Virus record (IMG/VR): IMGVR_UViG_3300037189_007278
Coordinates: 1 to 27,224 of that record
DNA: 27,224 nucleotides
Origin: a virus
Strand: one strand, 5' to 3'
Program-made: the position numbers and the translations under genes
Shown: piece after piece, positions 137 through 19,885 of the stretch
Layout of the letters: the number at the start of each line of letters is the position of its first letter
Position numbering within the stretch: position 1 is the stretch's first letter
The notes under the pieces: generated by a model
Databases searched by the model: none
What the model saw: the letters and a program-made list of their open reading frames with translations, nothing else
What the model was told of the DNA's origin: nothing

Positions 137-165
137 AATGTATCCACTTCGGAAACTTCTGTCAA
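137..165 (-). promoter_or_regulatory. Leftward early promoter (P_L-like)
   Basis: On the minus strand a perfect -35 box TTGACA (160-165) is followed by a 17-bp spacer and the -10 box TACATT (137-142). The predicted transcript start, about base 130, is roughly 20 bases before the ATG at 109. The spacer is almost entirely filled by an operator-like 20-bp element (141-160), and a second copy (174-193) lies just upstream of the -35, the classic layout of a repressor-controlled promoter. Promoter activity is inferred from sequence only. Confidence 0.75.
141..160 (+). promoter_or_regulatory. Operator-like element, copy 1 (O_L pair)
   Basis: The sequence TATCCACTTCGGAAACTTCT matches copy 2 at 174-193 in 17 of 20 positions, starting 33 bp away. 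It fills the spacer of the leftward promoter and overlaps the -10 box by two bases and the -35 box by one, so a bound protein would block RNA polymerase. The best candidate ligands are the S24 repressor (1423-2004) and the Cro-like protein (2099-2338), because the same element recurs between those two genes. Confidence 0.65.
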
Positions 166-173
166 CAACAAAA

Positions 174-193
174 TATCCATTTCGGATACTTTT
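174..193 (+). promoter_or_regulatory. Operator-like element, copy 2 (O_L pair)
   Basis: The sequence TATCCATTTCGGATACTTTT contains a perfect dyad, TATCC-ATTTC-GGATA, typical of an operator for a dimeric helix-turn-helix protein. It is the copy closest to consensus and lies about 9 bp upstream of the -35 box of the leftward promoter. Its second half, GGATACTTTT, is identical to the element at 2074-2093 in the repressor/Cro intergenic region. Confidence 0.65.
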
Positions 194-232
194 TATTTAC
201 GCAAGCATTTGCGCGGTGTATAAAGGCAAAAG

Positions 233-264
233 AAAAGGCAGCCAGTGTTACCTGACCGCCTTTT
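233..264 (-). terminator. Strong leftward intrinsic terminator
   Basis: Read leftward, this forms a 13-bp hairpin: arms AAAAGGCG-GTCAG and CTGGC-TGCCTTTT, loop GTAACA, two G-U wobbles. Two runs of four T follow, separated by one C. It lies downstream of the repressor operon and upstream of the leftward early promoter, so it would keep lysogenic transcription out of the P_L operon. Read rightward the inner stem has C-A mismatches, so it should work mainly leftward. Confidence 0.7.
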
Positions 265-378
265 CCGCCTAATGATAGAGTTTTGCAATTGCAAGGATAA
301 CCGAAGCTACCCCGTACAAGCTGAGTTCTACCTTCAGCTTCTTGAATGAAATGCGGAACATATGATGCTCTGAATGAC

Positions 379-699: not shown

Positions 700-873
700 A
701 TGAGTGATTTCGATATAAAAAAAGACTCGTTAGAGCCTTGGGCGCAATTTTTTTATTCACTTTACAGCGTGAATAGGCCAAAGAAAGGGAATGGCTTTAT
801 CAAGCCTTTCTTTATCCGAATCCGTAAATCCGTTGCGCTCGTCATCGGAAAAGCTTTTAAACGCGGCAATTAA
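700..873 (+). CDS. Small rightward ORF of unknown function, antisense to its neighbour
   Basis: This 57-aa ORF starts at ATG 700 with a strong ribosome binding site (GGGGGA, five bases upstream). The product begins MSDFDIKKDS, has an aromatic segment (WAQFFYSLY, residues 14-22) and a basic C-terminal half ending FKRGN. Bases 757-873 overlap the 3' part of the minus-strand gene at 757-960. The opposing gene looks at least as protein-like, so this may be spurious. In its favour are the strong Shine-Dalgarno sequence and the 57 bases outside the overlap. No family is recognised. Confidence 0.35.
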   Translation: MSDFDIKKDSLEPWAQFFYSLYSVNRPKKGNGFIKPFFIRIRKSVALVIGKAFKRGN

Positions 874-960
874 TTCATCGCGTGTTGCCAGGCCGTTTTT
901 CTCTACAACAGACATAAGAACCGCAAACATCATTGCTGTGACTTTTGTATTAAAATCCAT
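757..960 (-). CDS. Small soluble protein of the repressor operon, unknown function
   Basis: This encodes a 67-aa acidic, probably all-helical protein starting MDFNTKVTAMMF, with a charged middle (FKSFSDDERNGFTDSDKERLDKA). An AGGGG ribosome binding site lies eight bases before the ATG. It is the last gene of the leftward series repressor, membrane protein, secreted protein, this gene, with 18 bases separating it from the preceding stop. I know no family for it. Its position suggests expression in the lysogen, so it may be an accessory immunity or host-modifying gene. Its 3' half is antisense to the ORF at 700-873. Confidence 0.6.
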   Translation of the reverse strand: MDFNTKVTAMMFAVLMSVVEKNGLATRDELIAAFKSFSDDERNGFTDSDKERLDKAIPFLWPIHAVK

Positions 961-978
961 ATCCCATTCCCCTGCGGG

Positions 979-1188
979 TTAGTTGCTGTTCTTAGTGCCA
1001 GCTTTGCCAGTATAAGGGTTCACATTGCCTTTAGTGCTGTAATTATCTCGCTTGGTATGGTTAGGGGATGTTTTATTGTAGGGTGCAACATAATGACCTG
1101 ATTTAGTCACATGGCCGCGCACATGTACACTTTTTGCCAATACAGGTGCGGAAAACAAACAAATAATCAGCGTAAAAATGTATTTCAT
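979..1188 (-). CDS. Small exported protein of the repressor operon
   Basis: This is a 69-aa protein with a clear signal peptide: MKYIF, a hydrophobic core (TLIICLFSAPVLA) and a probable cleavage after Ala-18. The mature part is about 51 residues, rich in Lys, Asn, Thr, Tyr and Gly, and contains VRGHVTKSGHYVAPY and STKGNVNPYTGKAGTKN. I recall a similar pattern in small exported proteins of unknown function from diverse Proteobacteria. I chose the ATG at 1188 because it overlaps the upstream stop as ATGA and has GGAA six bases upstream; a start at 1200 would have no ribosome binding site. The product probably acts in the periplasm or at the envelope of the lysogen. Confidence 0.7.
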   Translation of the reverse strand: MKYIFTLIICLFSAPVLAKSVHVRGHVTKSGHYVAPYNKTSPNHTKRDNYSTKGNVNPYTGKAGTKNSN

Positions 1189-1421
1189 AATTGTTTCCAT
1201 CCAAAATGAAGTATGCCTAAAATACCGCCGCCAATGTAAATTATTATGACTAAAACAATTACAACTAGGAACAGCGAAAACAGAATAGTAATTATTGATG
1301 CGGCGATTTTATCAATTACAAAGGTTAAGTTCTTAAAGAAGCTATTGATGGGTTTTTTATATAGCTTGTATAAAATAATAATACCTATCCAAACCGCAGT
1401 TATGCTAACTAATGCCCCCAT
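1185..1421 (-). CDS. Small two-span membrane protein of the repressor operon
   Basis: This 78-aa protein has one hydrophobic segment near the N-terminus (about residues 4-19) and a longer one at about 40-72 (SIITILFSLFLVVIVLVIIIY, then GGGILGIL), separated by a basic, Phe-rich linker. The Shine-Dalgarno sequence GAGGTGAT directly precedes the ATG and lies in the last codons and stop of the repressor gene, so translation is probably coupled. The stop overlaps the next start as ATGA. A small inner-membrane protein co-expressed with a repressor is the usual setting for superinfection-exclusion or lysogenic-conversion functions, but no family is recognised and this role is inferred. Confidence 0.75.
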   Translation of the reverse strand: MGALVSITAVWIGIIILYKLYKKPINSFFKNLTFVIDKIAASIITILFSLFLVVIVLVIIIYIGGGILGILHFGWKQL

Positions 1422-1422
1422 A

Positions 1423-2004
1423 TCACCTCGGTCTAATGTCTAATACTTTAGCAGCCCACTTCAAAGGCACGTTTTCCATAATAGGCGCATTATGGCTTAT
1501 TAGGTTATAACAACCCTTTTTAGAGCCTTTTGACAGTTCCTTGACATAACACCTGCCGTCTGCTGTTTCAGCTACACACAGCGCCCCTATGCAGTCATTA
1601 GGTACAGTTAAAAACTCACGCCTGTAAAACAATATCCATCCATCACGCAACATGGGGTACATTGAATCACCGCGTACCCTTACGGCAACAACTGATTCGT
1701 CACAATGTGCTGGTAAATCTACTTCCTCTAATCCAGCACCCTTTGCATGGTCATCATAAGGTATAATTATCGCCCCAGCTCCTACTTCACCAACGATGTG
1801 TGTGGTTCTTCTTTCGTTTGTTTCAATTAGCTGAGTAATAGGGCAATTTAATCCTTTAGCAAGGCGCAGCATCCAATCCGTAGTTAGTTTCATAACTCCG
1901 GTTTCAAGTTTCATAATAGTTGCTTTTGTAGTTCCCGCCTTATCGGCAAGAGCCTCCATAGACATACCTGCATTTTTTCTAAGTAATTTGATGCGGTTTT
2001 GCAT
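1423..2004 (-). CDS. CI/LexA-like phage repressor (XRE helix-turn-helix plus S24 peptidase)
   Basis: The 193-aa product has an XRE-type helix-turn-helix at about residues 1-55 (MQNRIKLLRKNAGMSMEALA, KATIMKLETG) and a C-terminal S24/LexA-like domain. The nucleophile Ser-114 lies in RGDSMYPMLRDG and the general-base Lys-155 in YVKEL. An Ala-Gly pair in GEVGAGA (about 76-77) is the likely self-cleavage site. Both catalytic residues are present, so RecA-stimulated cleavage and induction by DNA damage are expected. The open frame extends upstream to 2181 but there runs through the operators and promoters, so I take the ATG at 2004. It faces the Cro-like gene and leads the four-gene leftward operon. 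Confidence 0.93.
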   Translation of the reverse strand: MQNRIKLLRKNAGMSMEALADKAGTTKATIMKLETGVMKLTTDWMLRLAKGLNCPITQLIETNERRTTHIVGEVGAGAIIIPYDDHAKGAGLEEVDLPAHCDESVVAVRVRGDSMYPMLRDGWILFYRREFLTVPNDCIGALCVAETADGRCYVKELSKGSKKGCYNLISHNAPIMENVPLKWAAKVLDIRPR

Positions 2005-2035: not shown

Positions 2036-2064
2036 ACAGTACCCAATAACGATACTTTTGTACT
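2036..2064 (-). promoter_or_regulatory. Candidate repressor promoter (P_RM-like)
   Basis: On the minus strand, -10 TACTGT (2036-2041) and a weak -35 AGTACA (2059-2064) are separated by 17 bp. The operator-like element 2040-2059 fits between them with exactly the geometry seen at the leftward early promoter (two bases of -10 overlap, one base of -35 overlap). Transcription would start near 2029, about 25 bases before the repressor ATG. The poor -35 suggests a weak promoter, and the overlap suggests autorepression. Confidence 0.45.
2040..2059 (+). promoter_or_regulatory. Operator-like element, copy 3 (O_R pair)
   Basis: The sequence TACCCAATAACGATACTTTT matches copy 2 (174-193) in 15 of 20 positions, including the entire GATACTTTT end. 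It is the most diverged copy and sits within the candidate repressor promoter. Its start is 34 bp from copy 4, close to the 33-bp spacing of the left pair. Confidence 0.5.
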
Positions 2065-2090
2065 TGCAAAAGGTTTCCAGTTAGGATACT
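2064..2090 (+). promoter_or_regulatory. Candidate rightward early promoter (P_R-like)
   Basis: A -35 TTGCAA (2064-2069) is followed by -10 GATACT (2085-2090, 15-bp spacer) or TACTTT (2087-2092, 17-bp spacer). The -10 lies inside operator copy 4. Either choice puts the transcript start at about 2096-2099, at or next to the Cro ATG (2099), so the message would be leaderless or nearly so. The match to consensus is modest. Confidence 0.4.
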
Positions 2091-2093
2091 TTT
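2074..2093 (+). promoter_or_regulatory. Operator-like element, copy 4 (O_R pair)
   Basis: The sequence TTTCCAGTTAGGATACTTTT matches copy 2 (174-193) in 17 of 20 positions and shares the block GGATACTTTT exactly. It ends six bases before the Cro-like start codon and covers the -10 of the rightward promoter. Its presence at both ends of the immunity region is the main evidence for a two-site operator system. Confidence 0.6.
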
Positions 2094-2098
2094 GCAAT

Positions 2099-2338
2099 AT
2101 GAAATTATCTGAATATCTCAAAACCAAGTCTATTACCGCTGCTGAATTTGCCCGACAGATAGGCGCAAAAAGCCGCGCCACAGTTCACAGATATACTGAT
2201 GAGTTTAGCTGCCGTGTACCGCACCCAGAAATGATGCGGAAGATTTTTGAAGTAACTGGTGGCGCTGTCTCACCTAGTGATTTTTACAACATTCCCACTA
2301 CAACCTCCAAGCGAAAAGTAAAGGAAAAATCCGCCTAA
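2099..2338 (+). CDS. Cro-like helix-turn-helix regulator
   Basis: The 79-aa product MKLSEYLKTKSITAAEFARQ... has a compact XRE/YdaS-like helix-turn-helix at about residues 8-45 (AAEFARQIGAKSRATVHRY) and a basic tail (SKRKVKEKSA). The reading frame is open upstream to 1988, but the operators occupy that stretch, so I choose the ATG at 2099. The only Shine-Dalgarno candidate (AGGA at 2083-2086) is 12 bases away, fitting a leaderless message. It is divergent from the S24 repressor and first on the rightward transcript, the standard Cro position. Its role in countering the repressor is inferred. Confidence 0.85.
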   Translation: MKLSEYLKTKSITAAEFARQIGAKSRATVHRYTDEFSCRVPHPEMMRKIFEVTGGAVSPSDFYNIPTTTSKRKVKEKSA

Positions 2339-18971: not shown

Positions 18972-19276
18972 GAGTACAGGGCAATCTAAGGGTTACGGAT
19001 GCTAATAACCCAAACTTCTACCCGCAGCTTATCAAGGTTATATCGGATATTACCAAGCAATTAAACACACTTTCTGAAGGGTTTATTGCTGCTTCGACAA
19101 GCGCGTCGACTGCGGCTCCAACAGCGGGAAGTTATAACCAAGGCGATAGGATTTTGAACACCGCCCCTATTGAGGCTGGTGGTGTTGGTTCAAAATATGT
19201 AATAACGCAATGGATATGTGTCGCTTCGGGGTCACCCGGTACTTGGGTTGCTTGCCGCTCTCTTACTGGTAATTAA
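18968..19276 (+). CDS. Small tail-associated protein, unknown function
   Basis: The 102-aa product MRVQGNLRVTDANNPNFYPQ... has a helical N-terminal half (LIKVISDITKQLNTLSEGF) and a beta-rich C-terminal module (AAPTAGSYNQGDRILNTAP, then VITQWICVASGSPGTWVAC) of a kind frequent at the ends of phage tail proteins. It overlaps the nozzle gene by ATGA. Its last 45 bases are antisense to the 3' end of the HNH-like gene inserted just downstream. Confidence 0.65.
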   Translation: MRVQGNLRVTDANNPNFYPQLIKVISDITKQLNTLSEGFIAASTSASTAAPTAGSYNQGDRILNTAPIEAGGVGSKYVITQWICVASGSPGTWVACRSLTGN

Positions 19277-19885
19277 CGATATTTTATCTAATACATTTTC
19301 GTAACTTAACCTTTGACGAATAAACCAATCATACAACGTATAGTATGACCAGTTTAATTGTTGTGACAAAGTTTTTAAATGGATTTCGCCAAAAGGTGTT
19401 TGAATTAAGATTGCACACTTGCGATTGAGGGTTTGTTGTAACGGCGTAGCCCATCTGCAATTATTAAGAGTGTAATCACCATTACAATTTATTCTATCAA
19501 TCGAATGTTTTGGGCTTGGCATTTCCCCCATATCGGAAATGAATTGCTCAAAATCATTTATCCATTCTGGCGCCATTTTTATTCCGCGCGCACCATAATA
19601 TGGATACATGGATGATTTTTTGTTGTAGCAACGTTTCTTTATGCCCGCCCAAATTTGATACTCACGAGTTCCGCTTCTGGCGTGAGTTCTAACGGAGTTT
19701 CCGGCTGTTTCTTTTTTCCAGCAACCGCAAGATTTAGTGTTGCCTCGTTTGAGATTAGATGGATAGGCTATAATTTTGTTGCCGCAATCACATATGCAGA
19801 AATATTTTTTAAATCGCTGACCGTTCCAAATTAACGGTTCAGCTTCTGCAATAACTATTAGTCTATGGAAACGCTCGCCTATCAT
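19232..19885 (-). CDS. HNH-like homing endonuclease, minus-strand insertion in the tail operon
   Basis: The 217-aa protein opposes all surrounding genes. It has an N-terminal zinc-ribbon-type region (CICDCG and CGCWKK, about 30-57), the segment YQIWAGIKKRCYNKKSSMYP and YYGARGIKMAPEW (about 97-109), and HSIDRINCNGDYTLNNCRWA (about 126-145). The last is the degenerate HNH-type core of a phage-encoded endonuclease family I recognise by pattern. Such proteins spread themselves by cutting alleles that lack them. There is no clear ribosome binding site. The DNA is visibly more AT-rich than the flanking tail genes. Nuclease activity is inferred. Confidence 0.72.
   Translation of the reverse strand: MIGERFHRLIVIAEAEPLIWNGQRFKKYFCICDCGNKIIAYPSNLKRGNTKSCGCWKKETAGNSVRTHARSGTREYQIWAGIKKRCYNKKSSMYPYYGARGIKMAPEWINDFEQFISDMGEMPSPKHSIDRINCNGDYTLNNCRWATPLQQTLNRKCAILIQTPFGEIHLKTLSQQLNWSYYTLYDWFIRQRLSYENVLDKISLITSKRAASNPSTG

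Follow-up and report, generated by a model that had tools for sequence, protein, structure and literature searches.

A putative lysogeny cargo operon encoding a secreted phrog_29674 protein as a candidate superinfection exclusion module

Cargo genes that are linked to a phage repressor and serve exclusion or conversion are of an already known kind. In phage lambda, the rexAB cargo lies between cI and the left operator region (OL) and is transcribed with the repressor. In Vibrio phage K139 the lysogenic operon cI-orf2-glo encodes Glo, a small soluble secreted protein that its annotation describes as periplasmic and as having a part in phage exclusion, and in Streptococcus phage TP-J34 the ltp gene sits in the lysogeny module and is transcribed in the prophage state (PMC3952083). 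Here we consider a comparable locus in the IMG/VR virus record IMGVR_UViG_3300037189_007278, the whole of whose 27,224 bases (hereafter the window) was analysed, where genes for a two-span membrane protein, a secreted protein and a small acidic protein follow a CI/LexA-like repressor. To judge from gene order and sequence features, this trio is very probably an envelope-directed cargo expressed in lysogeny; superinfection exclusion is, by analogy and still tentatively, the single most likely purpose, and is favored because Glo and Ltp were characterised in the same genomic position. The direct sequence basis of this proposal is the gene order, the coupling of the genes, the predicted signal peptide, the family assignment, the recurrence of the family behind regulators and the operator-like pairs around the module.

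The immunity region at the left end of the window comprises a Cro-like gene and the divergent repressor (Table 1), and the trio lies downstream of the repressor and on its strand, with intergenic gaps near zero. The start of the two-span gene is coupled to the end of the repressor gene, whose last codons and stop overlap its Shine-Dalgarno sequence, GAGGTGA. The start of the secreted gene (ATGA) overlaps the stop of the two-span gene. An earlier note on this DNA, made from the sequence alone, had described the trio with these coordinates, strand and order, the ribosome-binding site in the repressor's last codons, the ATGA overlap, and a signal peptide followed by 51 residues; each of these was borne out, the Shine-Dalgarno reaching as far as the stop codon. 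Codon-usage scores support the repressor (0.05), the secreted gene (0.07) and the acidic-protein gene (0.19, the highest of the set) when compared to a null of overlapping open reading frames (ORFs; mean -0.22, 95th percentile -0.01). For the two-span gene the score is neutral, at about 0, and its call therefore rests on the Shine-Dalgarno sequence, the stop-start coupling and the topology.

The secreted protein begins with a predicted signal peptide, MKYIFTLIICLFSAPVLA, which is followed by a polar part of 51 residues. The earlier note could name no family with a function for it; it is a full-length match to phrog_29674 (E 2.5e-18, residues 7-67 to positions 10-71 of a 74-position profile), a family of unknown function whose profile is also matched by all 73 of the aligned relatives. 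The conserved core reads GYxKKxGTYVxPHxRTxPNxTxxDNYSTKGNxNPYTGKxGT, and G31, N49, N55, N57, P58, Y59, T60, G61 and G64 (numbering of the window protein) are invariant in the 73 aligned members; the NPYTG string was not found in the literature searched, which consisted of open-licence papers. Structure modelling gave a small, confidently predicted unit after the signal peptide (block predicted local distance difference test, pLDDT, 81-93), and a sequence search for solved-structure relatives of this domain returned none.

A close comparison is with Glo. Each is a small soluble secreted protein encoded in a repressor operon, and the K139 operon, like the trio here, is transcribed away from a divergent cox/cro-type gene; the window gene is third in order on the repressor strand, with coupled starts, and its product appears to have a cleavable signal peptide and no anchor, there being no lipobox cysteine at the predicted cleavage site. 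The two proteins are not detectably homologous: there is no alignment with E <= 100, the profile match is confined to the signal peptide, and Glo (137 residues) lacks the NPYTG core. Furthermore, K139 orf2, which is predicted to be cytoplasmic, stands where the two-span membrane protein stands here. The Ltp and Sie2009-type systems likewise have an exclusion gene behind the repressor in the lysogeny module and a product located outside the cytoplasmic membrane (PMC3952083), as we propose for the window; Ltp is lipid-anchored, whereas the secreted protein lacks the cysteine for such an anchor, and the two share no family. At most, the secreted protein may work like Glo or Ltp, and it is a member of neither. 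The two-span protein could act in a manner similar to SieA of phage P22 or gp15 of phage HK97, although no sequence relative of the two-span protein was found. As for RexA and RexB, the trio has no match to their families in PADLOC, Pfam or PHROGs, and one of its products would be exported, unlike those of rexAB.

The reading we favor is a lysogeny cargo operon consisting of the repressor and the genes for the two-span, secreted phrog_29674 and small acidic proteins, which in a prophage would be transcribed to the left from the promoter of the repressor. The secreted protein would be made in the lysogen, enter the periplasm and act on the envelope, and the benefit would be superinfection exclusion, other phages being hindered at adsorption or at DNA entry, as for Glo or Ltp; the membrane protein would be a separate, exchangeable companion.

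The question of whether phrog_29674 genes are found behind phage regulators more generally was addressed in the 80 viral loci closest to the window protein (71 distinct), in which all ORFs were searched with the repressor profile and the other genes of the same loci served as the null. Of the 26 distinct viral loci showing a regulator, 19 have it on the same strand and no more than 1.5 kb directly upstream, where 3.8 would be expected, a count to be read with the limits that these loci are the nearest to the query, that genes were called mechanically and that some regulators are hidden by contig ends. Placement behind the repressor is thus non-random. The linked regulators are diverse, several being less than 45% identical to any other and some lacking an S24 domain, and in a family tree built on only 48 columns, and poorly resolved, the repressor-linked copies are scattered rather than forming one clade (21 state changes for 23 linked rows). 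This diversity, together with the scatter, suggests repeated capture of the secreted gene by phages. Relatives were found in at least 177 viral contigs in one viral scan, and none by tblastn in 50,697 deposited phages; since deposited isolates lack the family, the link could not have come to light in collections of cultured phages.

ORFs lying between the regulator and the secreted gene encode a signal peptide or a membrane span in 9 of 15 cases, compared with 31 of 190 at other positions in these loci (Fisher p 4e-4, in an exploratory test run without a Shine-Dalgarno filter); an earlier test with a strict Shine-Dalgarno filter, which retained 4 between-genes, was not significant, and we take the enrichment as supportive, not as proof. 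No gene separates the regulator from the secreted gene in 10 of 20 loci. The two-span protein, predicted to be all-helical by a single-sequence model, has no family or relative in PADLOC, Pfam, NCBIfam, PHROGs or the relative searches, and the same searches found no relatives of the acidic protein; the sole viral match to the two-span protein, 32% across a portion of a long ORF in the tail region, was judged to be due to chance. Of the trio that the earlier note proposed looking for in other prophages, the secreted family recurs while the membrane and acidic proteins are without detectable relatives, and the idea of a fixed membrane-plus-secreted pair is not supported, both for the lack of relatives of the membrane protein and for the loci that have no gene between; the membrane protein is better supported as an exchangeable companion. 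That two of the three proteins are without relatives would also fit passenger genes with no selected function, kept in the slot between repressor and OL because it tolerates insertions. This we regard as very improbable, since one family recurs in the slot far above the null, envelope products are enriched there, and the secreted core is strictly conserved over 73 divergent members.

Operator-like repeats bracket the module. Repeats A and B lie between cro and the repressor with a direct-repeat spacing of 34, and when the window was scanned with this pair alone, the C/D pair (spacing 33), which overlaps and flanks a leftward promoter-like site, ranked next with scores of 32 and 30, the best score among 30 simulated windows being 30; A to D are the four top-scoring sites of the window. 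The two pairs would represent sites like the right operator region (OR) and OL of lambda, presumably bound by the repressor, and the trio would therefore occupy the rexAB position, between the repressor and OL-like sites. Downstream of the OL-like promoter, a minus-strand ORF (MLTSLKTRKPLPTNTANEAKNWANELANKVAAAIEA...) begins at 110 and continues past the edge of the window; it is probably the first gene of a leftward operon. L110, the closest relative when repressors are compared (44% identity), encodes a repressor, a phrog_29674 protein and a secreted Sel1 protein, and its own operator motif, unlike that of the window, occurs twice between its cro and repressor with a further copy behind the cargo at about 6226; the layout is the same, with different operators and different companion genes. 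In locus L194, with a repressor that is also 44% identical, two predicted lipoproteins occupy this slot. The trio's tight coupling to the repressor and its position between two operator regions could alternatively indicate a role in the switch between lysis and lysogeny or in maintaining the prophage, for instance as a sensor of the envelope that signals to the repressor; the repressor, being of the S24 type, would be open to regulated cleavage. We consider this improbable: the companions are not conserved between relatives, as switch parts usually are, and the secreted protein has no cytoplasmic part.

It is from the distribution of phrog_29674 in bacteria that the strongest alternative to exclusion arises. 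At least 373 bacterial genome contigs carry a relative (one genome scan); the family is patchy, being present, usually as a single copy, in 10 of 385 genomes sampled from one class and not found in 14 control genomes, and single copies span many phyla (among them Alphaproteobacteria, Flavobacteria, Patescibacteria and Omnitrophota), mostly without phage context. Some members are extended into SH3-, RTX- or NTF2-like parts. With most bacterial copies lying away from phage genes, and some joined to domains of an extracellular type, the main competing reading is a lysogenic conversion unrelated to exclusion: the gene would have been captured from bacterial genomes, its product would alter the host envelope (adhesion, biofilm, stress, binding to wall or surface polymers), and the prophage would gain through a fitter lysogen. 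We regard this as a quite plausible explanation; it has to account for phage copies that are concentrated behind the repressor, with exchangeable envelope companions, in the place usual for exclusion genes in K139 and TP-J34.

Several observations weigh against superinfection exclusion, or against the lysogenic setting on which it depends. The patchy, single-copy occurrence in bacteria fits general lysogenic conversion about as well as exclusion, and the domain extensions hint at a general envelope or extracellular role. Among bacterial genome loci the phrog_29674 gene lies behind a regulator in only 3 of 78, and its neighbors are mixed, including Sel1/TPR and other secreted proteins. The fold search with the secreted protein gave no significant match that would point to a target (best PDB E 2.4, best viral-library E 0.04), and none of the three proteins matched any family of PADLOC-DB 2.0.0 at E <= 1. 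There is also no integrase within the window, for which reason the temperate lifestyle is deduced from the repressor/cro region. Membership in known defence or exclusion families was rejected, PADLOC, Pfam and NCBIfam having given nothing usable; likewise, the top two small PDB chains, from type IV secretion outer-membrane complexes, were not significant. What stands of the earlier note's proposal of an exclusion or conversion module is thus its linkage to the repressor, its direction towards the envelope and the layout of a lysogeny cargo, as seen in the 19 linked loci, the companion enrichment and the operator-like pairs.

A fixed place in the genome, between repressor and OL, is the mark of genes expressed by a prophage inside its host, and a very common, uncharacterised secreted family tied to this slot in many unrelated phages offers a small, testable candidate for a surface change made by prophages; a protein of 69 residues with hundreds of relatives can be directly expressed and challenged. 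Neither the link between phrog_29674 and repressors, nor the arrangement of cargo between OR and OL in two phages whose operators differ, was found described in the literature searched. A broader view, which we offer as speculation and think rather unlikely, is that phrog_29674 represents a widespread and so far undescribed class of secreted exclusion or surface-masking factors, placed between repressor and OL in many temperate phage groups and accompanied in each by small membrane proteins that can be exchanged; the copies in bacteria would be domesticated or donor forms with the same function.

Table 1. Features of the immunity region and the putative cargo operon in the window.
Feature	Position	Strand	Details
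CI/LexA-like repressor	1423..2004	-	HTH_3 + Peptidase_S24; Pfam and PHROGs matches
Divergent Cro-like regulator	2099..2338	+	phrog_35 E 7.4e-6, HTH_26 E 0.005
Two-span membrane protein, 78 aa	1185..1421	-	translationally coupled to repressor
Secreted protein, 69 aa (51-aa mature)	979..1188	-	phrog_29674 family
Small acidic protein, 67 aa, net charge -2	757..960	-	codon score 0.19
Operator-like repeat A (OR-like)	2040..2060	+	TACCCAATAACGATACTTTTG; between cro and repressor
Operator-like repeat B (OR-like)	2074..2094	+	TTTCCAGTTAGGATACTTTTG; between cro and repressor
Operator-like repeat C (OL-like)	174..194	+	TATCCATTTCGGATACTTTTT; best site outside cI/cro region
Operator-like repeat D (OL-like)	141..161	+	TATCCACTTCGGAAACTTCTG; second-best outside cI/cro region; overlaps -10 of leftward promoter
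Leftward promoter-like site (PL-like)	137..165	-	TTGACA-17-TACATT; leads to ORF starting at 110
Weak terminator-like hairpin	722..739	-	18 nt behind acidic-protein gene; fold -9.7 kcal/mol, z -1.6
Strong intrinsic terminator	231..266	-	15-pair stem + T tract; -29.5 kcal/mol, z -6.8

In a subset of the phage copies, a C-terminal extension with conserved cysteines (total length 217-276 residues) is present, namely in L031, L034, L038, L039, L045, L050, L052, L053, L057 and L065, and had no Pfam match in L039, the member tested. A second family of small secreted proteins, with the motif GCCSxHxGxCGC, recurs beside phrog_29674 genes in L085, L130, L155 and L163. No conjugation context was seen for the copies on two plasmids, one of which is near a restriction-modification system and the other near an AbiEii gene, numbers too small to draw on.

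The host is likely to be alphaproteobacterial: relatives of the repressor occur in Ruegeria, Mesorhizobium and Paracoccus phages, and portal relatives are more common in the class of genome G668 (12 of 385 genomes) than in that of genome G001 (3 of 274). None of the bacterial genomes was taken to contain the same phage, the portal relatives being only 28-42% identical.

The strong terminator that the earlier note placed after the trio exists; it is 490 nt beyond the last gene, and a nearer, weak hairpin had been overlooked. Between this terminator and the trio lie 424 nt without a coding ORF (267-690; GC about 0.54 compared with 0.46 in the window), which fold much better than shuffled sequences (z -4.9 on the minus strand, -4.3 on the plus strand), the minus strand ending in the terminator. 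The stretch is possibly a long structured RNA; it had no Rfam match at the gathering threshold and none convincing at E <= 5, and no DNA relative was found in phages. A plus-strand ORF for 57 residues (700-873), with a strong Shine-Dalgarno sequence (AAAGGGGGATTTATG) and a codon score of about 0, runs head-on into the acidic-protein gene and overlaps its end. Elsewhere, the region 2800-2990, between a gp49-like gene and the next ORF, is A-rich and without an obvious gene, with an AT skew of up to 0.48, and a minus-strand ORF of 217 residues (19232-19885) is opposed to the direction of the late genes, its appearance recalling HNH-type homing endonucleases.
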